Source: Syntrophobacterales bacterium (lineage in GTDB: Bacteria; Desulfobacterota; Desulfobaccia; Desulfobaccales; 0-14-0-80-60-11). Taken from it: a stretch of DNA of 49,235 nt. Every line of letters begins with the position of its first letter. Within the stretch, counting starts at the first letter, position 1. Below the pieces are notes generated by a model. The model searched no databases. It was given only the letters and a program-made list of their open reading frames with translations, and was not told where the DNA came from. This document shows, piece after piece, positions 29,554-43,124 of the stretch. Both the position numbers and the translations under genes were made by a program. Location of the stretch: the NCBI GenBank assembly GCA_023512475.1, contig JAILZL010000021.1, forward strand, positions 1-49,235, read 5' to 3'.

Positions 29554-29571
29554 AGGCAAGGCCTGTGCCAA
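29554..29571 (-). promoter_or_regulatory. Sigma-54 (-24/-12) promoter of the hdrCBA-mvhD-metVF operon
   Basis: On the minus strand TTGGCACAGGCCTTGCCT has TGGCAC and TTGC with GG-N10-GC spacing, a near-perfect sigma-54 element. The start would be near 29544, 64 bases before the hdrC ATG. A palindromic site about 110 bases upstream of that start fits an enhancer-binding activator. Confidence 0.75.
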
Positions 29572-29644
29572 CCGGCCTTGTCAAAGCAACTAATGGAAAT
29601 TAATAATAAATTTTTCCAAGGGCCCTTCCCGGGCCCCCGGAAAA

Positions 29645-29844: not shown

Positions 29845-32376
29845 TCAGGCCGGCGACTCCAGGCGGAACTCCTGCCGCCGGAAGGCCTCCAGGTGCCGCT
29901 GAAGAGCCGCCTCGGAGGTCAGGGCGACATCCAGTTGCCGGCAAAAGGCGAACAGGCAGGCCACCTGTTCCAGGAGGGCGGCGCCTTTCCCGGCGGGATA
30001 TTTGAGCAGGCGGGCCCGGAGAAGGTCGCCGGTGAGCTCCGCCTCGAAGCCCAGGTCGGTGAGGATGGTCTTAAGCAACCGCAGGCGGCGCTCCCGCCGG
30101 TCCTCGGCGGCGGCGCCGCCCTGAAACTGCAGGGCGAGATAGTTGTCGTTGATTTCCGGCCCCAGGTAGGCGTCCACCACGGCGAAGTGATAGCCCAAAC
30201 GGGAGCTGAAGTGCAGGTAATTTTCCGCCACCAGGGCAAAACTGGCCTCCCCCAGCTCCCCTTCCGACCTGCCGGCGTCATAGAGGGTGTTGGCCACCAC
30301 GGACAGAAAGCCCTGAAGATCGGGGGCAGCGCGGCTCATGCCCTGCAGTCCCGGGTGACGAAAGCCCTTGAGCAGGGCCCTGAGAGGCAGGCTGGTGATC
30401 TGGGCCTCCTCCAGTATTTCCGGGTCCGTGGCGGTGGTGCCGCCCCCCAGATCCAGAATCAGGAGATGAAAGGGCAGGTCGGTCTTAAGGCGACGCACGC
30501 CGGCCGCCTGGCGCAGACCCCCCACCTTCTGGGAGAACATGGCTGCCATGGCCTTCTCATGGCAGAACCGGGTGAGGTCGTGGAAGGAGCGGCAGTTTTC
30601 CGGCCGGAAGCCGGGATCGGCCGGGTCCAGGAGGTGCAGGGGCGTCACCTGCCGCAGCACCTGCCGGTATTTCAGGTTCCGGGACCGCTCCTGCCCGGAG
30701 ACCTTCTCCCGGCGGGGACGGTGGGCCAAAACGGGATGCCGCCCGGGATAGATCCGGGTCCGGTCGGCGTCCACGGTGACCCACTGCCCCGGGGTCAACC
30801 GGCTGACGGCGCCCTCCAGCCCCACGAGGGTGGGCACCTGGTATTCCCGGGCCAGGATGGTGAGGTGATCCGTGGGGCTGCCCACCTCCAGGATGAGGGC
30901 CGCCAGCCGGTCCAGCACCATGGCCAGGCGCAGGGAGGGCCTTAAGGCCACCAGGACCGCCCCTGAGGGAACCGCCTCCGGATCCCCCTCGGGTGGAAGG
31001 ACGGCCACCGGACCGGCGCCCATGCCCCGCACGGCGCACACCCCGCCCTCCAGGAGCGGTCCGGGTCCGGGTGCGGGATCCGCCTGGAGGACCTCGACTT
31101 CGGCCTCCAGGCGCAGGTCCCGGGACTGGAGGATCACAATGTCCCCGGAGTCATCCACGGCCCATTCCACGTCCTGGGGGCCCCCGAAATGGCGCTCCAA
31201 AGCCAGGCCGAGCTCCCGTAAGGCGGCCAGCTCCTCAGGGGAGAGGCAGGGGGCGGTGGCCTGCTCCGGGTCCAGCGGCTCCTCGACGCAGCCACCCCCG
31301 GGCAGGGGCCGCAGGGCCACCGGCTTGCGGGCGATCTCCTGCCGGCTGAGGCGCCCGGACTCCCGCTCCAGGCAATACAGATCCGGGGTGATGACCCCGT
31401 CCACGGCATATTTCCCCAGCCCGAAGACGGCGTTGATGAGCAGAGTGCCCGTCTCGGGCCGGCGGGGATCCACGGTGAACATCACCCCACTGGCCCGGGC
31501 GGCCACCATGCTCAACACCCCCACGGCCATGGGGAGACCGCCGGCCTCGTAGCCGTGCCGCCGCCAGTAGGCCACCGCGGCGGGATGAAACTTGGAGGCG
31601 ATGATCCGCTTATAGGCGGCGGGCAGTTCCGCCACCGGCACATTGAGGAGGGTGGTGAACCGGCCGGCGAAGGAGTGCTCCCCGTCTTCGCCCACGGCGC
31701 TGGAACGGACCGCCAGGCGCTCTGAGGGCAGCGCCTGGGCGGCCAGGTGCAGGATCCCCTCCAGATCGGGCGGCAAGGGGGTGTTCAGGATGAGGGTCTG
31801 AATGTCCTCGCAGACCCGGGTAAGAAGGCCCGTGTCCTCCGGGGGGACGGCGGCCAGTCTGGCGGCGATGGTCTGCTCCAGGCCCTGGGCGCGCATGAAG
31901 GCCTGATAGGCGGCGGTGGTGACGGCAAACCCCCGGGGCACCGGCAGGCCCAGGCGGTGGCGGATCTCCCCCAGCCGGGCCATCTTCTCCCCCACCGCCA
32001 GCCTCTGCTCCCGGCTGAGGGCATGCAGGGGCAGGAGATAGGGGGTATCCGGGATCTCCGGTGCGCCCTCCAGGGTTCTTTGCAGCCGCTGCCACAGGGC
32101 CTGGAAGACCCGGCTCAGCTGGGGGTAACGCTCCCCGCTCAGCCGGTGGAGGGCGGTGATCATCTCCGCCACCCGCTCCCCCAGTTCCTCCAGGCGCCGG
32201 TAAAGATGCTCCTCTTCCGGCCGGGATGCCGGGGCCGGGCTCTCCTCCAGTTCCGCCATCAGGGCCAGGATCTGATTGTTCGCCTCCAGCAGGCGGCGGA
32301 AGTGGGCATATTTCTCCCGCAGATACTCCAGGGAATTTTCCCGGTGGGGAGCCATCGTCCGCAGGAAACTGAACAT
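29845..32376 (-). CDS. PEP synthase/PPDK-like protein with novel C-terminal region
   Basis: 843 residues; GGAGGTG stands 7 bases before the ATG. The N-terminal ~120 residues are helical. Then comes a pyruvate-phosphate-dikinase ATP-binding domain (~125-430): GEKMARLGEIRHRLGLPVPRG, LAVRSSAVGEDGEHSFAGRF, ASGVMFTVDP and DVEWAVDD. A phosphohistidine swivel domain (~470-550) carries GSPTDHLTILAREYQVPTLV with the His of the TxH motif. The usual PEP/pyruvate TIM barrel is absent. Instead ~290 residues of unrecognised sequence follow, including LDLGGGTT and LGYHFAVVDAYLGPE. So it may phosphorylate an unknown acceptor from ATP rather than make PEP. It is the third gene of an operon with a TSUP permease and a USP-like protein, an association I recall from other Desulfobacterota. 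Known PEP-synthase activity cannot be assumed. Confidence 0.82.
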   Translation of the reverse strand: MFSFLRTMAPHRENSLEYLREKYAHFRRLLEANNQILALMAELEESPAPASRPEEEHLYRRLEELGERVAEMITALHRLSGERYPQLSRVFQALWQRLQRTLEGAPEIPDTPYLLPLHALSREQRLAVGEKMARLGEIRHRLGLPVPRGFAVTTAAYQAFMRAQGLEQTIAARLAAVPPEDTGLLTRVCEDIQTLILNTPLPPDLEGILHLAAQALPSERLAVRSSAVGEDGEHSFAGRFTTLLNVPVAELPAAYKRIIASKFHPAAVAYWRRHGYEAGGLPMAVGVLSMVAARASGVMFTVDPRRPETGTLLINAVFGLGKYAVDGVITPDLYCLERESGRLSRQEIARKPVALRPLPGGGCVEEPLDPEQATAPCLSPEELAALRELGLALERHFGGPQDVEWAVDDSGDIVILQSRDLRLEAEVEVLQADPAPGPGPLLEGGVCAVRGMGAGPVAVLPPEGDPEAVPSGAVLVALRPSLRLAMVLDRLAALILEVGSPTDHLTILAREYQVPTLVGLEGAVSRLTPGQWVTVDADRTRIYPGRHPVLAHRPRREKVSGQERSRNLKYRQVLRQVTPLHLLDPADPGFRPENCRSFHDLTRFCHEKAMAAMFSQKVGGLRQAAGVRRLKTDLPFHLLILDLGGGTTATDPEILEEAQITSLPLRALLKGFRHPGLQGMSRAAPDLQGFLSVVANTLYDAGRSEGELGEASFALVAENYLHFSSRLGYHFAVVDAYLGPEINDNYLALQFQGGAAAEDRRERRLRLLKTILTDLGFEAELTGDLLRARLLKYPAGKGAALLEQVACLFAFCRQLDVALTSEAALQRHLEAFRRQEFRLESPA

Positions 32377-32403: not shown

Positions 32404-33471
32404 TTAGCCCAGGGATTCCTCAGTGGCTTCGATACCGGGGCTCCCGGAGACCTCCGCCCGCCACATGGCCCCCAGGATGATGACGGCTCCCACCACCAAG
32501 GCCAGACACATGAAGAGGAAGCTCATTTTGTCCAAAACGGTGAGCGTCCCCGGGCCGAGGGCCATGAGGCCCAGATCCGTGAGATACCGGGGCACCGCCA
32601 AGGCCCGGCTCACCGCCACGATGAGCATGATGGTGCCCATGACCACCTTGATCATGTGCTCCTTGACATAGGTGGTGCCGATGGCCCCCAGTTGCACCCC
32701 GAGGAGGGAGCCTGCCAGAATGATGAGGGTGAGGCGGATGTCCACCATGCCGTTCACGGCCCACTTGAGGGTGCCACCCAGGCCCATGACAAAGGCGATG
32801 ACCAGCTCGGTGGCCGAGGCCACCAGGCTCGGCGCCCCCAGGACATAGATCATGCCCGGCACACCGATGAACCCGCCCACCGCGATGGTGGCGGCCAGCA
32901 TCCCGGTGGCGAACCCGATGGGCAAAGTGAACCACAGGGAGATGCGGGTGTTGGCCGTATGGAGGGTGATCATGGGCGGCAGGTGGATCTGCGCCAGCCG
33001 CCGGGCCAGGGGTGAGACCTTCTCGCCCCCACCCTGACGGGCGATTCTGTAAGCGTCATAGAAGACATATCCGCCCACCAGGACCAGGACGGCCACGAAG
33101 GTGAGACTGACATAGAGGTTGGACCCCGCCTGTCCCCAGGATTGGAGGATCCACTCCTGGATCTTGATGCCCACCTGCACGCCCACGCCGGCGGAGGCGG
33201 CCATGATGAGGCCGAGCTTGAGGTCCACCTGGCCGTATTTATACCGTTTGATGGCGCCCACCAAAGCCTTGGGGAACTTGTGGCACATGTTGCTGGCCAC
33301 CGCCACCGCGGCCGGGACCCCCAGGCTCATCATGCCGGGGGTGAGGACAAAGGCCCCCCCGGAACCGATGAAGCCGCTCACCAGGCCGCCGACGAAGCCG
33401 ACGCAGAAGAGAAACAGGATGGTGGTGGTGTTGAGGTCGATAAATGGGACGCTGCCGGCCATTTCATGCAT
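32404..33471 (-). CDS. TSUP family (TauE/SafE) membrane permease
   Basis: 355 residues with eight or so membrane helices. The N-terminal GGLVSGFIGSGGAFVLTPGMM and the mid-protein ATGMLAATIAVGGFIGVPGM repeats are the paired signature of the sulfite exporter TauE/SafE family. A charged loop (~140-165) separates the halves. GGAGGG lies 8 bases before the ATG. Members move sulfite, sulfoacetate or other small anions; in sulfate reducers the substrate is often not known. It sits between the USP-like membrane protein (27-bp gap) and the PEP-synthase-like protein (27-bp gap), so all three are co-expressed from the sigma-54 promoter at 34362. A link between anion transport and the ATP-dependent enzyme is inferred from this order. 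Confidence 0.9.
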   Translation of the reverse strand: MHEMAGSVPFIDLNTTTILFLFCVGFVGGLVSGFIGSGGAFVLTPGMMSLGVPAAVAVASNMCHKFPKALVGAIKRYKYGQVDLKLGLIMAASAGVGVQVGIKIQEWILQSWGQAGSNLYVSLTFVAVLVLVGGYVFYDAYRIARQGGGEKVSPLARRLAQIHLPPMITLHTANTRISLWFTLPIGFATGMLAATIAVGGFIGVPGMIYVLGAPSLVASATELVIAFVMGLGGTLKWAVNGMVDIRLTLIILAGSLLGVQLGAIGTTYVKEHMIKVVMGTIMLIVAVSRALAVPRYLTDLGLMALGPGTLTVLDKMSFLFMCLALVVGAVIILGAMWRAEVSGSPGIEATEESLG

Positions 33472-33498: not shown

Positions 33499-34314
33499 TT
33501 AGACATTGAGGCGCAGACGGGGCCGCGGCCGCTGACGCCGGGCCGGGCGGGCCTGAGGCCGCACCTTTTGCTGCGGGGCCCGGATGCCCAGAGCCTCCCA
33601 GAGGTGATGGGCAAAGGTGCCGTGGATGTAAGAGAACAGAAAAACCGTGGCCACCGGCAAAGCCGCATACCAGCCGCCCCGGGTGAAATAGCCCATGATG
33701 CTCTCGGAGTTCAGGAATACGGCGGCATAGAGGGCCACCGTGGCCGCCCCCCACCCGAGGGTCCGCCCGAGCACCTGCCTCACATTCGGTTCCGCGGTCA
33801 CGTTCATCTCCCCTTTCCCCGTGGAAATGGTAAAAACCGGGAGTGACACCCCGCCCAGCATGTCGGCTTCCCGGCTGTCCGTGGCGTTCAGGACAAATTC
33901 GATGCGCCTTTTCTCCCGGTGCAGCACGGTCATCACCTCGCCGAGGCCGCCGAAGCGCACCTGATGCTCAGCCTTCAGGCCGGCGGCCTTAAGCCTTTTC
34001 CGGACCGGCCGCCAGGCCCAGGAGGCCTGGGCGCAAAACCACGCCCGCCGGGCCCGGGCCTTCAGCCCCGCCAGGGGGCCGGCTGCAGGGGAGGCCGGGC
34101 CCACGTTCACGGCCACCAGATCATAGCCCAGCCGGTCCGCCAGATTGAGGGCATAATCCAGGACCGAGTCCGTGAATCGGGCCCCCTGTCCCACCAGGAG
34201 GATCTTGCGGTTTTCCGGCGCCAACTCCGGCGGCACCGACAGCCCCTTGGCCATCAGGCTGGCCGCCGCCGCCTCCCGGGGGTCCCATCCTGTACTTGAC
34301 TGCTTGCCGTCCAT
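33499..34314 (-). CDS. USP-like protein with C-terminal membrane helices
   Basis: 271 residues from ATG 34314, which has GGAAGGGG 8 bases upstream; an in-frame GTG seven codons earlier is less likely. Residues ~30-160 resemble a universal-stress-protein Rossmann fold: KILLVGQGARFTDSVLDYAL then DRLGYDLVAVNVGP and FGGLGEVMTVLHREKRRIEFVLNA. The usual ATP-binding G-2x-G-9x-G(S/T) loop is not evident. Two hydrophobic helices follow at ~185-240 (GWGAATVALYAAVFL and YAALPVATVFLFSYI), then a Lys/Arg/Pro-rich tail. So the USP-like part is probably anchored to the membrane with its tail in the cytoplasm. It is the first gene of the operon with the TSUP permease and may regulate it. Function not known. 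Confidence 0.65.
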   Translation of the reverse strand: MDGKQSSTGWDPREAAAASLMAKGLSVPPELAPENRKILLVGQGARFTDSVLDYALNLADRLGYDLVAVNVGPASPAAGPLAGLKARARRAWFCAQASWAWRPVRKRLKAAGLKAEHQVRFGGLGEVMTVLHREKRRIEFVLNATDSREADMLGGVSLPVFTISTGKGEMNVTAEPNVRQVLGRTLGWGAATVALYAAVFLNSESIMGYFTRGGWYAALPVATVFLFSYIHGTFAHHLWEALGIRAPQQKVRPQARPARRQRPRPRLRLNV

Positions 34315-34361
34315 GTCGGTGCCCCTTCCGGTCACTTTGGATTTTGTCCTGGCCTCTTCCT

Positions 34362-34378
34362 ATGCAAAGGCCGGGCCA
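34362..34378 (-). promoter_or_regulatory. Sigma-54 (-24/-12) promoter of the USP-TSUP-PEP synthase-like operon
   Basis: On the minus strand TGGCCCGGCCTTTGCAT matches TGGCAC-N5-TTGCW in all but one position with exact GG-N10-GC spacing. The start would be near 34352, 38 bases before the ATG at 34314. Two palindromes lie about 110 and 185 bases further upstream. Confidence 0.7.
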
Positions 34379-34450: not shown

Positions 34451-34470
34451 GATGTTGCATAATGCAATGG
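34451..34470. promoter_or_regulatory. Palindromic operator 1 (TTGCATAATGCAA)
   Basis: A perfect 13-bp palindrome, TTGCAT-A-ATGCAA, at 34455-34467 within a longer site starting GATG. It matches operator 2 (34528-34547, opposite orientation) in 15 of the first 16 positions. It is centred about 110 bases upstream of the sigma-54 start at 34352, as expected for an NtrC-type upstream activator site. Confidence 0.65.
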
Positions 34471-34597: not shown

Positions 34598-34694
34598 GAA
34601 GCTGTGACCACCTCGTGGGGGGAAGGGGCCAGGGGCGGGGCCTCCGTCCGCCTCCTCCCGCCCCCACTCCTGAATCTTGGTCAAGACGAGGCCC

Positions 34695-36698
34695 ATGTTT
34701 TTTCGCCGCCCTCCCCCGCCCGAAGCCCCCAAGGCCGCGCCGGAACTGGAGAGCCTGCGCCAGACCCTGAAGCAGGCCCGCCTGCCGGAGACCGCCGCCC
34801 AGGTGGCCTGGCGGGAGCTGGAAAAGCTGGAAAAGACGGACCCCACCCTGCCGGAGTATGCCATCGGGCTCAGTTATCTGGACCTGCTCCTGTCCCTGCC
34901 CTGGGAGCGCAGCACCCCGGACAACCTGAACCTCAGGCATGTGGAAGCGGTGCTCAATGAGCAGCACTACGGGCTTCAGCCGGTCAAGGAGCGCATCCTG
35001 GAATATCTGGCCGGCCGCATGCTCTGCAGCCTGCAGCCCAGCCGGGTCCTGGTGGTGGATGATGAAGAGATCGCCCGCACCAACCTGGAGTACATCCTGC
35101 AAAAGGACGGCTACCAGGTGGACACCGCGGCCAGCGCCCTGGAGGCCCTGGACAAGCTGGCGAGGCGGGAATTCGATGTGGTGCTCACCGACCTCAAGAT
35201 GGAGCGCATGGACGGCCTCCAGCTGCTGGAGGCCATCAAGGCCCAGGCGCCGGCCACGGAAGTGGTGATGATCACCGGCTACGCCACCGTGGGCACCGCG
35301 GTGGACGCCCTGCGCAAGGGCGCGGCCCACTATCTCCCCAAGCCCATCAACCTGGAGGAGCTGCGGCGGACGGTGCAGGAGCTGGCTGAAAAAAAGCGCC
35401 TCTTCCAGGCGAGCCAGGGGCCGGTTCTGTGTTTCAGCGGGCCGCCGGGCACCGGCAAGACCTCCATCGGCCAGGCCATCGCCACCGCCCTGGGCCGCAA
35501 GTTCGTGCGCCTCTCTCTGGCCGGCATGCGGGACGAAGCGGAGCTCCGGGGCCACCGCCGCACCTATGTGGGGGCCCTCCCCGGGCGGATCATCAGTGAA
35601 CTGCGGCGCCTGGGGGTCAACAACCCGGTCTTCATGCTGGATGAAATTGACAAGATCGGCCAGGATTTCCGAGGGGATCCGGCGGCGGTGCTCCTGGAGG
35701 TGCTGGACCCGGAGCAGAACCGCCACTTTGTGGATCATTACCTGGAAGTGCCCTTCGACCTCTCCCGGGTGATGTTCATTGCCACCGCCAACGCGGTGAC
35801 CGACCTGCCGGCGGCGCTGGTGGACCGGCTGGAGGTCATCACCTTCCCCGGCTACACCACCCGGGAGAAACGGGAGATCGCCCGCCGCTATCTCTGGCCG
35901 CGGCAGTTGCGCAGCCACGGCCTGTCCGGGCAGGAGCTGGAGCTGACCCCCGAGGCCATCACCACCATCATCCAGCATTACACCCGGGAGGCCGGCTTGC
36001 GGCAGCTCAACCGGGCCTTGGCCACCCTGGCCCGGAAACTGGCCCGCCTGTGTCTGGAGGAGCAGCAGCGCTGCCCGGTGACCTATCTGGACGCCGCGGT
36101 GGTGGAACGGCTCCTGGGGCCCCATCTCTATCAGCACGAGATCGCGGCCCGGGAGGATCGGGTGGGGGTGGCCACCGGCCTCGTGTGGACCGAATTCGGC
36201 GGGGAGATCATCTTTGTGGAGGCGGTGCGCATGAAGGGCCAGCAGCAGCTCCTCCTCACCGGCTCCCTGGGGGAGGTCCTGCGGGAATCGGCCCAGACCG
36301 CCTTAAGCTACGTGCGCAGCCACGCCGCCGACCTGGGGGTGGATCCCGACTTTTTCCGCCACAGCGACATCCACATCCATCTGCCCTCCGGGGCCATCCC
36401 TAAGGAGGGACCCAGCGCAGGGGCCGCTTTGGCGGTGAGCCTCATCTCCCTTCTCACCGGCCGGCCGGTGCGCCGGGAGGTGGCCCTCACCGGGGAGCTC
36501 ACCTTAAACGGTCAGTTGCTGCCGGTGAGCGGCGTCCGGGAAAAACTGCTGGCGGCCCAGCGGGCCGGGGTCCAGGTGGTCATCCTCCCCCGGCAGAATC
36601 AGGCGGAGGTGGCCCGGGTGGAGGAGGAGGCCAAGGAGGGCCTGGAGATCCTCCTGGCCGACAATCTCCGGGAGGTTCTGGACCGGGTGCTGCGCTGA
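34695..36698 (+). CDS. Lon (S16) protease with an inserted receiver domain (REC-Lon)
   Basis: 667 residues from ATG 34695; a TTG six codons earlier is the alternative. Residues ~14-109 are the helical part that precedes the ATPase of Lon (LPWERSTPDNLNLRHVEAVL, HYGLQPVKERILEYLAGRML). The usual ~200-residue N-terminal substrate-binding domain is absent. A complete response-regulator receiver follows (~115-235: VLVVDDE, phosphoacceptor Asp166 in VLTDLKM, Lys216 in LPKPIN). The Lon AAA+ module resumes at GPVLCFSGPPGTGKTS (Walker A ~249-257), with LDEIDKIGQDFRGDPA and arginine and sensor motifs. The protease domain has the catalytic serine in KEGPSAGAA (Ser574) and the lysine in GVREKLLAA (Lys617). 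All catalytic residues are present. The receiver is about half identical by eye to that of the regulator at 36867, whose kinase is therefore the likely phosphodonor. Degradation targets unknown. Confidence 0.92.
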   Translation: MFFRRPPPPEAPKAAPELESLRQTLKQARLPETAAQVAWRELEKLEKTDPTLPEYAIGLSYLDLLLSLPWERSTPDNLNLRHVEAVLNEQHYGLQPVKERILEYLAGRMLCSLQPSRVLVVDDEEIARTNLEYILQKDGYQVDTAASALEALDKLARREFDVVLTDLKMERMDGLQLLEAIKAQAPATEVVMITGYATVGTAVDALRKGAAHYLPKPINLEELRRTVQELAEKKRLFQASQGPVLCFSGPPGTGKTSIGQAIATALGRKFVRLSLAGMRDEAELRGHRRTYVGALPGRIISELRRLGVNNPVFMLDEIDKIGQDFRGDPAAVLLEVLDPEQNRHFVDHYLEVPFDLSRVMFIATANAVTDLPAALVDRLEVITFPGYTTREKREIARRYLWPRQLRSHGLSGQELELTPEAITTIIQHYTREAGLRQLNRALATLARKLARLCLEEQQRCPVTYLDAAVVERLLGPHLYQHEIAAREDRVGVATGLVWTEFGGEIIFVEAVRMKGQQQLLLTGSLGEVLRESAQTALSYVRSHAADLGVDPDFFRHSDIHIHLPSGAIPKEGPSAGAALAVSLISLLTGRPVRREVALTGELTLNGQLLPVSGVREKLLAAQRAGVQVVILPRQNQAEVARVEEEAKEGLEILLADNLREVLDRVLR

Positions 36699-36866: not shown

Positions 36867-38219
36867 TCAGGCCAACCCGTAGCGTTTCAGTTTCCGCCAC
36901 AAGGAGACCCGGTCAATCCCCAGGATCTCGGCGGCCCGGGTCCGGTTGCCCTGGACCTGCTCCAGGATCCAGGCGATATATTCCTTTTCGTTTTCCTCCA
37001 GGGTCAGAAATTCCCGCCGCTGTCGGCGGATCATCTGCAGGCTGCGTTGCTGCAGGTCCGGCGGCAGGTGTTTCACTTCGATGAGGGGCCCGGTGGCCAG
37101 GGTCACGGCCCGCTCGATGATGTTCTCCAACTCCCGGACATTCCCCGGAAATTCGTAGTGCAGGAGGACCTCCAGGACCTCCGGGGCGAAGCCCTCCACC
37201 CGCTTGCCCTGGCGGGCCGCCACCTGGGTGAGGAAATGCTGGCAGAGCAGGGGGATGTCATCCCGGCGCTCCGCCAGGGGCGGCACCACCAAGGTGACCA
37301 CATTGAGGCGGTAGTAGAGGTCCTGGCGGAAACGGCCCTGGGCCACCTCCTGACGCAGATCCTTGTTGCTGGCGGCCACCAGGCGGACGTCCACCGGGAT
37401 CTCCTCCACCCCGCCCACCCGGATGAGGGTCTTTTCCTGGATCACCCGCAACAGTTTCACTTGCATGGCCGGGGGCATATCCCCCACTTCGTCCAGGAAG
37501 AAGGTGCCGCCGCTGGCCACCTCCAGGAGGCCCTTTTTGGCGCTGTGGGCTCCGGTGAAGGCCCCCTTTTCATGCCCGAAGAGCTCGCTGGCCAGGAGCT
37601 CCTCGCTGAAGGCGCCGCAATTGACCGCCAGAAAGCGCTTCCCCGCCCGGGGGCTGAGGGCATGGAGGGCCCGGGCCACCAGCTCCTTGCCGGTGCCGGT
37701 CTCCCCCAGGATGAGGACATTGCAGTCAGCAGGGGCGATCTGGGCGATGGTCTCCTTTAAGGCGACCATTTTGGCATTCTGCCCGATGAGGGAGGGATAG
37801 CCCGTCTGGGCCGCCACCTGGCGCTTCAGCTCCCGCACCTCCAGGCGCAGGCCCCGCTTGTCCAGGGCCTGGCGCACCAGCAGGCGGACCTCCTCATTCT
37901 GATAGGGCTTGGCCAGGTAGTGGTAGGCGCCCTGCTGCATGGCCGCCACCGCGCTGGCCACCGTGGCGTAGCCGGTGATGACGATCACCTCGGTGTCCGG
38001 GGAGAGCTCCTTGGCCCGCTTCAGCACCTGCATGCCATCCACCCGGTGGAGCCGCAGGTCGGTGAGGACCAGGTCGAATTCGCCCGCCTCCAGCTCCTCC
38101 AGGGCCTGCTCGCCGCTCTCCACCGCCACCACCTCATAGCCTTCCTTGCCCAGGATGTATTCCAGGTTTTCCCGGGCGATCTGCTCGTCATCCACGACCA
38201 GGATGCGGGGAGCGCTCAT
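36867..38219 (-). CDS. Sigma-54-dependent response regulator (NtrC family)
   Basis: 450 residues, normal for the family. Receiver domain at ~4-120 (ILVVDDEQIARENLEYIL, phosphoacceptor Asp54, Lys in LAKPYQ). AAA+ domain at ~140-375 with GETGTGKE, GAFTGA and GTFFLDEVGDMP, then the YEFPGNVRELENII block. A Fis-type helix-turn-helix at the end reads GNRTRAAEILGIDRVSLWRK. It activates sigma-54 promoters after phosphorylation. Its ATG overlaps the stop of the histidine kinase gene by four bases (ATGA), so they form a cognate pair. It converges with REC-Lon, whose receiver is strikingly similar. Two matched palindromes and a sigma-54 promoter at 34362-34547, just beyond REC-Lon, are plausible targets; that link is inference. 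Confidence 0.95.
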   Translation of the reverse strand: MSAPRILVVDDEQIARENLEYILGKEGYEVVAVESGEQALEELEAGEFDLVLTDLRLHRVDGMQVLKRAKELSPDTEVIVITGYATVASAVAAMQQGAYHYLAKPYQNEEVRLLVRQALDKRGLRLEVRELKRQVAAQTGYPSLIGQNAKMVALKETIAQIAPADCNVLILGETGTGKELVARALHALSPRAGKRFLAVNCGAFSEELLASELFGHEKGAFTGAHSAKKGLLEVASGGTFFLDEVGDMPPAMQVKLLRVIQEKTLIRVGGVEEIPVDVRLVAASNKDLRQEVAQGRFRQDLYYRLNVVTLVVPPLAERRDDIPLLCQHFLTQVAARQGKRVEGFAPEVLEVLLHYEFPGNVRELENIIERAVTLATGPLIEVKHLPPDLQQRSLQMIRRQRREFLTLEENEKEYIAWILEQVQGNRTRAAEILGIDRVSLWRKLKRYGLA

Positions 38220-39640
38220 TCCCTGGGCTCCTCCCCCTGAGCCTCCGGCAAAGGCAGGCGGATGGTGAAGGTGGTGCCCTCCCCCACCCGGCTCTCCACC
38301 TCAATGCTCCCCCGGTGCTTTTCGATGATGCCGTAGACGATGGACAGGCCCAGGCCGGTGCCCACCCCTTCCTCCTTCAGGGTAAAGAAGGGATCGAAGA
38401 TCTGGTCCAGGGCCTCGGGGGGAATGCCCACGCCGTTGTCCGACACGGTGATGACCACCTGGCCCCGGTTCGGGTCCGCTTCCGCCTTCAGGGTGATGCG
38501 GCCGGGCCCCTGGGGGATGGCCTGGATGGCATTCATGATCAGGTTGAGAAAGACCTCCTGCAGGCGCTGGGGATCGATCTCCGCCACCAGATCGTCGGGC
38601 ACCTCATTGACGATGTCGATGTGGGAGGGCACCTGACTGGAGATGAGCTGCAGGGAGCGCTTCACCACCTGGGCCAGGGGCACCCGGTGCAGGGAGAAAT
38701 CCCGCACCCGGGAAAACTCCAGCAGGCCTTTGACGATATCCCGGGCCCGGATCACCTCCTGCTGGATATTGTGCAGCATCTTGCGCAGGAGCTCCGGGGG
38801 GCCGCTCTCCAGTTCCTCCAGCAGGATCTGACAGGAAGTGGAGATGTTGTTCAGGGGATTGTTCAGCTGGTGGGCGATGCCGGCGGTCAGGATGCCCAGG
38901 GAGGACATCTTTTTGGACTCCACCAGCTGGTGCTGCCGCCGGGAGAGCTCGGTCACCATGCGGTTGAAGGCCTCCACCACCTGCTGGGTTTCATCCCGGG
39001 TCTGCAGCACCGGCAAAGGCCGGAAATCCCCTTTGGCGATCCTGAGGGTGGTATTTTCAATCACCTTCAAGGGCCGGAGGATCTTGCGGCTGATGAGAAC
39101 GGTGAGGAAAATACCGCAGAAGATGAAAAAGATGACCGCAGTGATCAGTTGGGCTTTCAGATTGGTGATGATCTCCAGAATGCGCTGCCGTTCGAAGATC
39201 ACCAATTCCCGGGAGAGCTCCACCAGCTTTTTGCCCCGCTCCCGCATCTCCTCTTCCTCGGCACTGCTCACTTTGGCCGTCCCGGAGACGAATTTCTGCA
39301 TCAGTTTGCGATAATTGTTTAGTTCGGTCTCCAGTTGCCCGAGAAACTGGGAGATTTTGAGAATCTTCCCTTCCGGGTAGAACTGCCTCAGGGTGTCAGA
39401 AGCCAGCTCAATCTGGTGCAGGTTTTCCTGTAAATCCTGGGGGGAATGATATAAGAGAAAATTTTTCTCATAACGTCTGATTTCCAGAATGATTTCCCGC
39501 AGGTCATTGGCCATTTCCACGATATGCTGCTTCACCTCAATCACTTTCAGGTAATAATAGGAATAACTGGCGATGAGGCCGATGACCACGATGGCGGCGG
39601 CAAAAATCACGATGACCTTCTGGCGGATATTGAGATGCAT
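38216..39640 (-). CDS. Membrane sensor histidine kinase (HAMP-HisKA-HATPase)
   Basis: 474 residues. First membrane helix at ~8-31, a mainly helical periplasmic sensor region of ~130 residues (including [15 protein letters not shown], typical of four-helix-bundle sensors), and a second helix at ~165-185. Then a HAMP domain ([21 protein letters not shown]) and the HisKA box [14 protein letters not shown] with His257. The ATPase domain shows [24 protein letters not shown] and GTGLGLSI. It senses an unknown periplasmic or membrane signal and phosphorylates the regulator encoded by the overlapping next gene. By receiver similarity it may also phosphorylate REC-Lon. Asn and Leu/Pro composition of the sensor gives no ligand clue. 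AT content of the 5' third is higher than in the neighbours. No strong ribosome-binding site. Confidence 0.94.
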
Positions 39641-41195: not shown

Positions 41196-43124
41196 CTAGT
41201 AAACATTGACGATGACATCATCAATATAAACGGTGGTGGTGCCGCTGGAAGAGTCGGCGTACACCTCAAACTTGGCCTTGACCGCACCTTTGGGCACGAA
41301 AGCCCCCAAGGTGAGGACATGCCAGGTGGCATCCGTATTGGTGCGCTGGGTCCAATTGCCTTGGTCCCCGTGGACATCATCCACCGTTACATTCTCCCCC
41401 TTGTCGTTGTAAAAGGTGAGAGACGTGCTGGTAGAACCGGTGGTGATGGTGCGGTGTTCCCACAGGCTGATGGTGAGGTGCTGGCCGGGCTCCACGGCGA
41501 ACTGCTGGGAGGCGGCGCACCACTTGCCGGCCCCGGCTTCCAGCTTCAGGCTGTAGGATCCGGTCTTCTTCTGAGTCGTACTCGCCGTCACGGTGCCGCT
41601 GCCCGCGGTGGTCCAGCCATTGGTGTTCCCGGTCTCAAAGCCCCGGTTGTAAAGGCGGCTGGGATATTGCGCAATGGCGAAGGGGGCCCCGCCGGTCCAC
41701 CAGGTGTTGACGTTGTCCACCGTCACCCGGCCCAGGCCTTCCACCAGCAATCGATGCCCGGAATTCACCTCCGGGGTGTAGTTGCTCCAGAGGTTATTGA
41801 TCCAGAGGTTGCGGATATGCAGGCCGCGGAATAAGTTGGAATTATGGACCCGAAACAGGGCATTGTTGTAGCTGGCGGCGCTGGTAACCCCGAATATCTG
41901 GCAGCCATCCAGCAGCACATATCCATTGACACTGTTCAAGTTGAGCCAATATCCACTGGAGGAGGAACTGCCGCTGGCCTCAAAATGAGAATCCCGGAAA
42001 ACTGCGGAGACATCACCGGTTATTTCGGGATAGTTATTGTCAAAAGCACATTTGTTAAAAAAATAATTTCCAGTACCTAAGGATATATAATATCCTGCCC
42101 CATCAAGGAAAGCACAATTATTGAAGCCGAGACTGGCACCCATATTGCTAAGACCCACAGCGACATACATCCCTCCCCAGCGTACTTGACAATCATAGAA
42201 AGCAACTAACCAGGCATTCTGAAGGAGGCGGATATTATATTGGAATCCTTGTATGGTACAATTTTGAATGTTAAAGAGAGAATTGCCTGTATATGTGGCA
42301 TGACCTATACATAAGCCCGTGTGAGCCTTAATGCTGCCTGCAGAATAGGAACCGATGATAAAAAAGCCCTGCAGGGCGGTTTTGCGATTCTTCAGCAAAT
42401 TGACGTAATCTGCGGAAGAATAGAGATGCAGGGCATAATTATCCACGCCGGAGGCCGGCAGCCCGCTGAAATCCAGGGTGGTACCATCCCCCAGCAGCTG
42501 GGTTTTGGATATATCGATGGGGGTGAGCTTGGTATTGAGCTTATAGGTCGCCTGACGGAATTTCACCGGTTTGAGCCAGGTCTGCGCCACTGTCAGACAT
42601 TTATCCACCGCGGCATAATCGTTGGCGACCCCATCCCCCACCGCCCCGAACCACTCCGGCAGGGCATGGGCAATCAGGGGCGATCCGCCCACGGTGCCCG
42701 TGCCGCTTAAGGCAAAGATCTGATAGGGGCCGGCGGTGAGGGCCCCGTTGATGGTCAGGGTGACGCCGTTGGCAATGTTGAACATGCCCCCCCGCTGCAC
42801 CACCAGGTGGACGTTGGCCGGAATGGTGGTGTTGGCGGTGATGTTGACCGTGCCCGCCGGGATTACCAGGCTCACGGGCGTGGAGCCGATCGTGCTCAAG
42901 GCCGCGGCCAGGGTTTCATAGCCCGGATCCCCCAGGGTCTTGTACCTGCCCAGGTGGGCGTCCACAAGGTCCAGGCCGGCGTCAAACTGGCCCATCTCCC
43001 CGGTGCCCCGGGCCCCGAGGCTCGGTTTGTAGAAAAACTGATTGGTAGTCTTCACCCCGGCCTCGGCCACGGGCACCATCAGCAAGACCCAGCCTATCAG
43101 CCACCCCATCATCTTCCTGCGCAT
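41196..43124 (-). CDS. Secreted right-handed beta-helix protein with C-terminal carbohydrate-binding-like domain
   Basis: 642 residues from ATG 43124, where GGGGAG stands 7 bases upstream and a signal peptide begins (MRRKMMGWLIGWVLLMVPVA, cleaved near AEAG). A linker of ~100 residues precedes PEWFGAVGDGVANDYAAVDK, the start of pectate-lyase-3-type beta helices common in phage tailspikes and surface enzymes. Repeated short strands rich in Asn and Gly run through ~150-480. The last ~150 residues (RGFETGNTNGWTTAGSGTV, then SYSLKLEAGAGKW and VYIDDVIVNVY) look like a CBM4/9-type jelly-roll binding module. It probably binds or cleaves a polysaccharide outside the cell. The helix part has visibly lower GC (around 42000-42450) than the neighbours. 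Active-site residues are not identifiable. Confidence 0.78.
   Translation of the reverse strand: MRRKMMGWLIGWVLLMVPVAEAGVKTTNQFFYKPSLGARGTGEMGQFDAGLDLVDAHLGRYKTLGDPGYETLAAALSTIGSTPVSLVIPAGTVNITANTTIPANVHLVVQRGGMFNIANGVTLTINGALTAGPYQIFALSGTGTVGGSPLIAHALPEWFGAVGDGVANDYAAVDKCLTVAQTWLKPVKFRQATYKLNTKLTPIDISKTQLLGDGTTLDFSGLPASGVDNYALHLYSSADYVNLLKNRKTALQGFFIIGSYSAGSIKAHTGLCIGHATYTGNSLFNIQNCTIQGFQYNIRLLQNAWLVAFYDCQVRWGGMYVAVGLSNMGASLGFNNCAFLDGAGYYISLGTGNYFFNKCAFDNNYPEITGDVSAVFRDSHFEASGSSSSSGYWLNLNSVNGYVLLDGCQIFGVTSAASYNNALFRVHNSNLFRGLHIRNLWINNLWSNYTPEVNSGHRLLVEGLGRVTVDNVNTWWTGGAPFAIAQYPSRLYNRGFETGNTNGWTTAGSGTVTASTTQKKTGSYSLKLEAGAGKWCAASQQFAVEPGQHLTISLWEHRTITTGSTSTSLTFYNDKGENVTVDDVHGDQGNWTQRTNTDATWHVLTLGAFVPKGAVKAKFEVYADSSSGTTTVYIDDVIVNVY

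Follow-up and report, generated by a model that had tools for sequence, protein, structure and literature searches.

Domain organization of the PPS-like protein

The stretch of DNA analysed here (the window) comprises 49,235 nucleotides of contig JAILZL010000021.1 from a Syntrophobacterales bacterium of the phylum Desulfobacterota. On its minus strand it contains a gene for a protein related to phosphoenolpyruvate (PEP) synthase, which we call PPS-like. The gene is the last one in an operon consisting of a gene for a weak USP-domain protein (USP-TM), a gene for a TSUP anion permease and the PPS-like gene; all three are located on the same strand and separated by 27-bp gaps. The codon-position GC content of the PPS-like open reading frame (ORF; 0.75/0.47/0.86) resembles that of the adjoining coding genes. 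The gene and the domains of its product are listed below. Conservation counts refer to an alignment of 73 family sequences, the window protein among them.

29845..32376, minus strand: gene of the PEP-synthase-like phosphotransferase PPS-like, 843 amino acids (ATG ORF with Pfam domains)
32041..32376, minus strand: N-terminal helical domain, residues 1-112, with AlphaFold helices 15-45, 55-80 and 86-103; N33 invariant in 73/73
31102..32040, minus strand: ATP-binding domain, residues 113-425; K131, R224, D402, E404, Q417 and R419 invariant in 73/73
30742..31059, minus strand: swivelling phosphohistidine domain, residues 440-545; H504 invariant in 73/73
29848..30711, minus strand: new C-terminal domain, residues 556-843; C595, H599, D600, H606, H730, R764 and D816 invariant in 73/73

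A Pfam scan assigned residues 127-425 to PPDK_N (PF01326, E 3.5e-76) and residues 470-539 to the mobile (phosphohistidine) domain of PEP-utilising enzymes (PF00391, E 1.3e-14). The invariant H504 closes a TDH triplet; in the position before this triplet's final residue, 60 of the aligned sequences have G and 8 have D. An ATP-binding and a phosphohistidine domain with this motif had been proposed in a first-pass annotation of the stretch, and both are confirmed by these matches. The remaining Pfam rows of the protein (E 0.23 and 0.39) are both located inside the N-terminal helices. The AlphaFold model of the full protein, calculated with the 73-sequence alignment as input (mean pLDDT 86.8, pTM 0.70), begins with three helices, all between residues 15 and 103, which are followed by the ATP domain, the His domain and a C-terminal alpha+beta domain. 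Structure searches with the N-terminal domain matched chiefly designed helical proteins (best E 2e-5), and these matches were set aside as composition. This helical domain, the seven copies of the family in the genome and the weak USP gene at the start of the operon were absent from the first-pass annotation.

The C-terminal domain

The last ~285 residues of the window protein showed no Pfam row up to E 1. In the C-terminal parts of all 73 members the best stray row reached E 0.011, and no Pfam family was matched by more than two members. A comparison with PDB sequence profiles remained at chance level (best E 0.037; UCHL5 with E 0.05 over ~46 columns). Remote homology to the PEP/pyruvate barrel, which the first-pass annotation had described as missing, was looked for using hhalign and was not found: the probability was 0.8% against PEP-synthase barrels and 0.4 against a mixed barrel set, compared with 99.7% for two barrel families aligned against each other as a positive control.

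Structure prediction pointed in the same direction. Modelled alone, the C-terminal domain reached a mean pLDDT of 81.9, with 227 of 288 residues at 70 or above and values below 50 for fragment residues 126-153. The model displays an antiparallel sheet with flanking helices, and by the order of its predicted secondary structure elements the domain is no TIM barrel. A Foldseek search with the domain alone against the PDB and viral models yielded no match at E ≤0.001. The best VIA-align Z-score was 7.4 over 80 residues; most matches were ferredoxin-like pieces within the noise. The same applies to the entries 2plg and 4h5b (E 0.02-0.09) and to rows for coproporphyrinogen oxidase and bilin-reductase-like proteins (Z 5.7-6.7); none of them was used as a fold relative. 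In viral contigs a single-protein query, which is sensitive to close relatives only, revealed no relative of the domain. In the open-access literature consulted, including the accessible text of PMC4001038, PMC10102598, PMC3333781, PMC4641369 and PMC4844700, no description of the domain or of this domain layout was found, and we regard the domain as undescribed.

The full set of C-terminal residues invariant in 73/73 sequences comprises C595, H599, D600, H606, F614, P635, G671, H730, G754, R764 and D816. The polar members of this set may form one active site.

It appears extremely improbable that PPS-like is a normal PEP synthase or PPDK whose barrel has diverged. The best NCBIfam match of the protein is PEP synthase, but NF005057 scored 265.4 bits with a cut-off of 598, and TIGR01418 247 bits with a cut-off of 739.75. 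Besides the hhalign values and the helix/strand order of the model, which is not that of a beta-alpha barrel, two separate barrel-type PEP enzyme matches in the same genome argue against this explanation. PPS-like shares with PEP synthase and PPDK the ATP-grasp and phosphohistidine domains in the same order and the conserved nucleotide residues; it differs from them by the lack of the PEP/pyruvate barrel PF02896, by the N-terminal helical and the other C-terminal domain, by its occurrence in multiple copies and by its linkage to transporters and two-component genes.

Distribution of the family

A family match (E ≤1e-5) was found in 107 of 297 genomes of the phylum. All 21 genomes of a closer set (the own genome and 20 relatives) contain the family with two to nine matches each, a few of them fragments; the genome of the window has seven copies. 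A scan of named genomes yielded at least 565 confirmed family stretches, and among the best 80 of these are Desulfobacca, Desulfovibrio, Pseudodesulfovibrio, Thermodesulfovibrio, Acidobacteria, Ignavibacteria, Zixibacteria, Poribacteria and Phycisphaerae records, mostly metagenome-assembled; the family thus occurs outside the phylum as well. The protein lengths centre near 855 residues. PPS-like is a new variant of the PPDK-type phosphotransferases and belongs to a real, widespread family.

Two deviations in length were observed. A subfamily of ~1060 residues (L204-L209 and L212; 1053-1153 residues) has an extension beyond the C-terminal domain, and this extension showed weak lectin-like Pfam matches, under the cut-off, in all five of the seven members that were scanned. 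In Desulfovibrio sp. A2 an ORF of 1334 residues (L193:4435-8439, plus strand) combines a methyltransferase-like N-terminal part with a PPS-like protein; this may be a real fusion or a matter of the start site.

Comparison with rifampin phosphotransferase

The ATP and His parts of PPS-like superpose best on rifampin phosphotransferase (Z 42.4, root-mean-square deviation 2.7 over 417 residues) and also superpose on PEP synthase (Z 38.8, 4.9 over 375 residues). The first-pass annotation had drawn a parallel to rifampin phosphotransferase, and both enzymes do possess an ATP and a His domain together with a third domain that is not a pyruvate domain. As drawn, the parallel was not supported. According to the available text of PMC4844700 the order in rifampin phosphotransferase is ATP domain, substrate (rifampin) domain and C-terminal His domain, whereas the His domain of PPS-like is central (ATP, His, C-terminal domain). 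Moreover, the rifamycin phosphotransferase model NF041857 gave 208.8 bits with a cut-off of 999, and no similarity between the substrate domains was found by Pfam or NCBIfam.

That PPS-like is a small-molecule dikinase of this kind, acting on a toxic or scarce metabolite to which the transporter linkage would then be due, seems unlikely to us. In addition to the superposition, such a function would fit the weak lectin-like matches in the ~1060-residue subfamily and the dual-specificity-type phosphatase that lies next to the family member in a matching cluster described below and could reverse the phosphorylation. The different domain order and the dissimilar substrate domains speak against it, and two to nine matches per genome, often beside signalling genes, are not what a resistance enzyme would show.

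Linkage to transporters and signalling genes

A listed TSUP gene is located at most 5 kb away from 53 of the 123 family genes in the 21 related genomes, with 2.8 expected; of the 48 genes for barrel-type PEP enzymes in these genomes, 0 are so placed (Fisher p 5e-10). Distances were measured from the C-terminal domain. The family set represents 123 of 129 matches (six fragments left out), the TSUP set 122 of 182 matches (28 weaker and 32 further rows left out) and the barrel control 48 of 60 matches (12 fragments left out). Adding the 28 weaker TSUP rows by eye contributed one family gene (G001:C11) and none of the 48 barrel genes. One of the left-out barrel fragments (G304:C151, 52 residues) has a TSUP gene at a distance of 1.5 kb; with fragments included, the control is 1/60. 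With all TSUP genes the chance expectation would be about half as large again as 2.8.

Neighbours were counted for 99 family genes in 80 named loci, within four genes unless stated otherwise; this named set is quoted alone, as the wider count (154 genes, 120 loci) was put together from two sets that overlap in part. Genes were called by our own ORF scoring and not taken from annotation, and each neighbour cluster was identified by one Pfam-scanned representative. This survey, suggested in the first-pass annotation for TSUP and USP genes, found TSUP near 51 of the 99 genes, a single-domain response regulator near 39, a Cache-PAS histidine kinase of ~764 residues (HK764) near 24, DUF4881 and a single USP near 17 each, a Cache-like sigma-54 activator near 16 and a DASS transporter near 10. 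A transporter (TSUP or DASS) is present near 59 genes, a signalling gene near 62, both near 44 and either of them near 77. The proposed link to TSUP therefore held, but the substrate link that had been deduced from it is less clear: signalling genes (receivers, kinases and sigma-54 regulators) are found in the neighbourhood as often as transporters are, and this points to regulation no less than to the metabolism of a substrate that is taken up.

DASS (sodium:sulfate) symporters are a second transporter type in the place of TSUP. Paired with CBS-domain proteins they were found beside PPS-like genes in L059, L061, L063, L106, L148, L154 and L156 (one representative of each scanned). Carbonic anhydrase genes (Pro_CA, one scanned) occur near PPS-like genes and histidine kinases at L041:11571-12188 (minus strand) and in four other loci, which hints that bicarbonate is another anion served.

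The divergence of the neighbouring proteins was compared by a mirror-tree analysis with unique members of 800-930 amino acids and a TSUP gene within four genes (62 pairs) or a response regulator within two (49 pairs), each partner being used once. TSUP divergence followed the C-terminal domain best (r 0.58; halves 0.48 and 0.54), compared with 0.43 for the ATP domain (similar-sized pieces 0.37-0.41), 0.44 for the His domain and 0.41 for the N domain. The C-terminal domain exceeded each of the other three in a fraction of 0.99 or more of the 300 bootstraps. This result suggests, at the level of sequence divergence, that the C-terminal domain and the TSUP permease change together.

These neighbourhood data bear on a further explanation, namely that PPS-like is a protein-directed phosphoryl donor in the manner of Enzyme I of the phosphotransferase system (PTS), which would pass the phosphate of H504 to the TSUP permease, a USP or the neighbouring receiver and use the C-terminal domain for docking. 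We regard this as possible but on balance doubtful; it overlaps with the reading preferred below, where the acceptor stays open. The His domain resembles Enzyme I (E 0.0008; structural Z 12.4), although Enzyme I has a PEP barrel as phosphate source where PPS-like has an ATP-binding domain. A single-domain response regulator directly adjoins 28 of the 99 family genes and stands alone between two family members in five loci (L052, L069, L070, L095 and L154), and the joint divergence with TSUP would also be in line with a protein target. On the other hand, histidine kinases able to phosphorylate these receivers are often nearby (HK764 near 24, HK570 near 8 and HK313 near 7 of the 99 genes), the invariant polar set looks more like a catalytic pocket than a docking face, and the divergence of the response regulators showed no clear preference for the N domain (N minus C-terminal domain 0.03, interval -0.09 to 0.16, in 49 pairs).

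It is very unlikely that PPS-like has no catalytic activity and binds ATP only as a scaffold or an allosteric sensor. The strong signalling context and the lack of a known activity would be compatible with such a role, but none of the 73 sequences deviates at the listed ATP-site residues or at H504, and a scaffold would have no need of them.

The operon and its control region

The other genes and features of the locus are the following.

32404..33471, minus strand: TSUP (TauE/SafE) anion permease gene (PF01925, E 6.5e-38), 27 bp upstream of the PPS-like gene
33499..34335, minus strand: USP-TM, first gene of the operon, weak USP-domain protein (PF00582, E 0.013, under the cut-off) with a C-terminal part that is hydrophobic by eye
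29612..29644, minus strand: terminator-like hairpin with a 14-pair stem, 3' of the PPS-like gene and before hdrC
34363..34378, minus strand: weak sigma-54-like promoter with one mismatch, facing the operon
34455..34467, no strand assigned: palindrome TTGCA-N3-TGCAA, candidate NtrC enhancer site, with no second perfect copy in the 2.78-Mb genome
34531..34543, no strand assigned: second copy of the palindrome with one mismatch
34677..36698, plus strand: receiver-Lon protease fusion, divergent to the operon (receiver 124-233, AAA 251-390, Lon_C 472-672)
36867..38219, minus strand: NtrC-type sigma-54 response regulator with GAFTGA
38216..39640, minus strand: HAMP-HisKA-HATPase histidine kinase

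A common operon with the downstream hdr genes is unlikely because of a 346-bp gap and the terminator-like hairpin, which is the longest of eight in this region, where shuffles would lead one to expect 4.2. The pair of palindromes (at most one mismatch each, 76-89 bp apart) recurs upstream of USP-TM in 11 of 11 loci having that gene, several of them close relatives. The receiver-Lon fusion is, judged from its domains, a candidate for a phosphorylation-controlled protease. Similar receiver-Lon genes were found beside the USP-TM gene in six other loci (a cluster of seven, of which the window gene was Pfam-scanned).

Between 21502 and 29498 (minus strand) the window contains genes for MTHFR, a DUF5981 protein, a large FAD and Fe-S protein, a CCG protein and a 4Fe-4S protein; we take the DUF5981 protein to be MetV-type and the last three to be HdrA-, HdrB- and HdrC-like, respectively. 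A sigma-54-like site with one mismatch (29555-29570) precedes these genes. A perfect TGGCACN5TTGCW site is present at 42134-42149 (plus strand) in a stretch of lower GC content, inside an ORF of the opposite strand.

Related gene clusters in Desulfovibrio

Two systems described in Desulfovibrio resemble the locus. The first is the 'nitrate cluster' of D. alaskensis G20 and D. vulgaris, in which insertions gave nitrate resistance; the resistant mutants include those of the PEP-synthase-like gene, the receiver and the TSUP. It consists of genes for a TSUP, a hypothetical protein, a PtxB-like periplasmic protein, a kinase, a receiver, the PPDK-like Dde_0604/DVU0246 and a phosphatase, and a leaky thiosulfate transporter was proposed as explanation (PMC4001038). 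Isolated DVU0246, DVU0247, DVU0250 and DVU0251 mutants grew equally with and without 100 mM nitrate, and insertions in the phosphatase gene had a fitness of -6.04 for DVU0245 in D. vulgaris and +2.08 for Dde_0605 in G20 (PMC4001038). No DNA-binding regulator is among the genes listed for the cluster in the available text (PMC4001038), so a post-translational route is plausible, in line with the protein-directed donor discussed above. Dde_0604/DVU0246 is similar to PPS-like in its annotated PPDK_N and mobile domains and in its TSUP, kinase, receiver and phosphatase neighbours; it differs in that its annotation in Table 3 of PMC4001038 gives no C-terminal domain.

Two of our loci connect this cluster with the family. 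In L203 (Pseudodesulfovibrio pelocollis) the order is TSUP, 203 aa, a 91-aa ORF, a PhnD-type protein, an sCache-PAS kinase, a 119-aa receiver, a PPS-like protein and a dual-specificity phosphatase. L197 (Desulfovibrio sp. A2) has the nitrate-cluster order around a family member, with no PhnD-type gene called. In both loci the PPS-like protein contains PPDK_N together with the mobile domain, and the profile of the C-terminal domain matches it with E 5.4e-81 (L203) and 5.0e-72 (L197); the window protein therefore belongs to the same family as these two proteins. The L197 protein is matched at 92% identity or more in seven of eight genomes grouped with L122 (Nitratidesulfovibrio liaohensis), one of these being its own genome and one match a fragment; the genome of L122 itself showed no match at the limit used. 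In the NCBI taxonomy D. vulgaris is placed in Nitratidesulfovibrio.

The second system is the three-component stress system DVU3298-3305 of D. vulgaris. DVU3303-3305 encode a receiver-Lon protein, a kinase and a sigma-54 regulator, a set which controls the adjacent operon with USP-type proteins (PMC3333781, PMC4641369); they show a co-fitness above 0.9 and are detrimental in chlorate, and the target DVU3299, a putative anion transporter, is important in chlorate (PMC10102598). The window operon likewise faces a Lon/NtrC/kinase set, and USP-type proteins and a putative anion transporter are present in the D. vulgaris target operon. In contrast to the window, no PEP-synthase-like gene is reported for that operon in the accessible parts of PMC3333781, PMC10102598 and PMC4641369.

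Proposed function

We consider it probable that PPS-like is an ATP-to-histidine-to-acceptor phosphotransferase of the PPDK/PEP-synthase superfamily in which another acceptor domain took the place of the pyruvate domain, and that it is the enzymatic output of a signal-controlled anion-transport module. To judge from the intact invariant residues, ATP would bind to the grasp domain and phosphorylate H504. The architecture suggests that the swivelling domain would then bring the phosphate to the C-terminal domain, where an acceptor, either a small molecule or a partner protein, may be phosphorylated at a site formed by C595, H599, D600, H606, H730, R764 and D816. The timing could be set by a single-domain response regulator or, in the window, by the Lon/NtrC/kinase system, and the outcome would permit or tune uptake via the neighbouring TSUP or DASS permease. 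To judge from the neighbours of the PPS-like genes, sulfate and nitrate may be among the ions whose uptake is controlled in this way.

Several points weigh against this interpretation. The invariant residues of the C-terminal domain might have a structural role. No transporter or signalling gene is located within four genes of 22 of the 99 family genes, or of 6 of 48 if only genes flanked by four genes on each side are counted. The mirror-tree correlations still contain the effect of common ancestry, and for the response regulators they favoured no particular domain (N 0.58, C-terminal domain 0.55, middle of the ATP domain 0.61). Sigma-54-like sites are not enriched in the window (20 with at most two mismatches, 23 expected), and a site with at most one mismatch is present in only 4 of 11 USP-TM loci, once inside a called gene; the promoter facing the operon is for these reasons weak evidence. 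Two palindromes with at most one mismatch are not rare for the window (as many in 25 of 100 shuffles), so the case for the enhancer site rests on the recurrence of the pair and on the perfect copy.

The comparison with Desulfovibrio has its own difficulties. The membership of DVU0246 in the family is deduced from annotation and gene order, and the window locus lacks the adjacent single-domain receiver, phosphatase and PhnD-type protein of the nitrate cluster. In PMC4001038 the pooled fitness of DVU0250 and DVU0245 is low in D. vulgaris and high for the G20 homologues, and for DVU0250 the isolated mutant does not behave as the pooled data would predict. An opposition of kinase and phosphatase in the nitrate cluster is only suggestive because the fitness values of DVU0245 and Dde_0605 are opposite and those of DVU0250 inconsistent. 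Since DVU3299 is described no further than as a putative anion transporter, its correspondence to the window TSUP is based on position and role.

A broader scheme is offered as a speculation that we hold with little confidence. Sulfate reducers and other anaerobes might control inorganic anions in a PTS-like fashion: ATP instead of PEP would charge the histidine of a PEP-synthase-derived enzyme, and the phosphate would pass through the new catalytic domain to a TSUP or DASS permease or to a dedicated messenger. Two-component systems would exert control, the phosphatase would serve as eraser, and the several copies per genome would each be devoted to one transporter.

Taken together, a conserved and often multicopy family of the sulfate-reducer phylum, which automatic models place nearest to PEP synthase, holds an undescribed domain with an invariant polar set. 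Nitrate is used against souring in oil fields, and mutations in a Desulfovibrio cluster of this kind relieve nitrate inhibition. With the domain and the module recognised, the mechanism behind this nitrate resistance becomes testable in laboratory strains.

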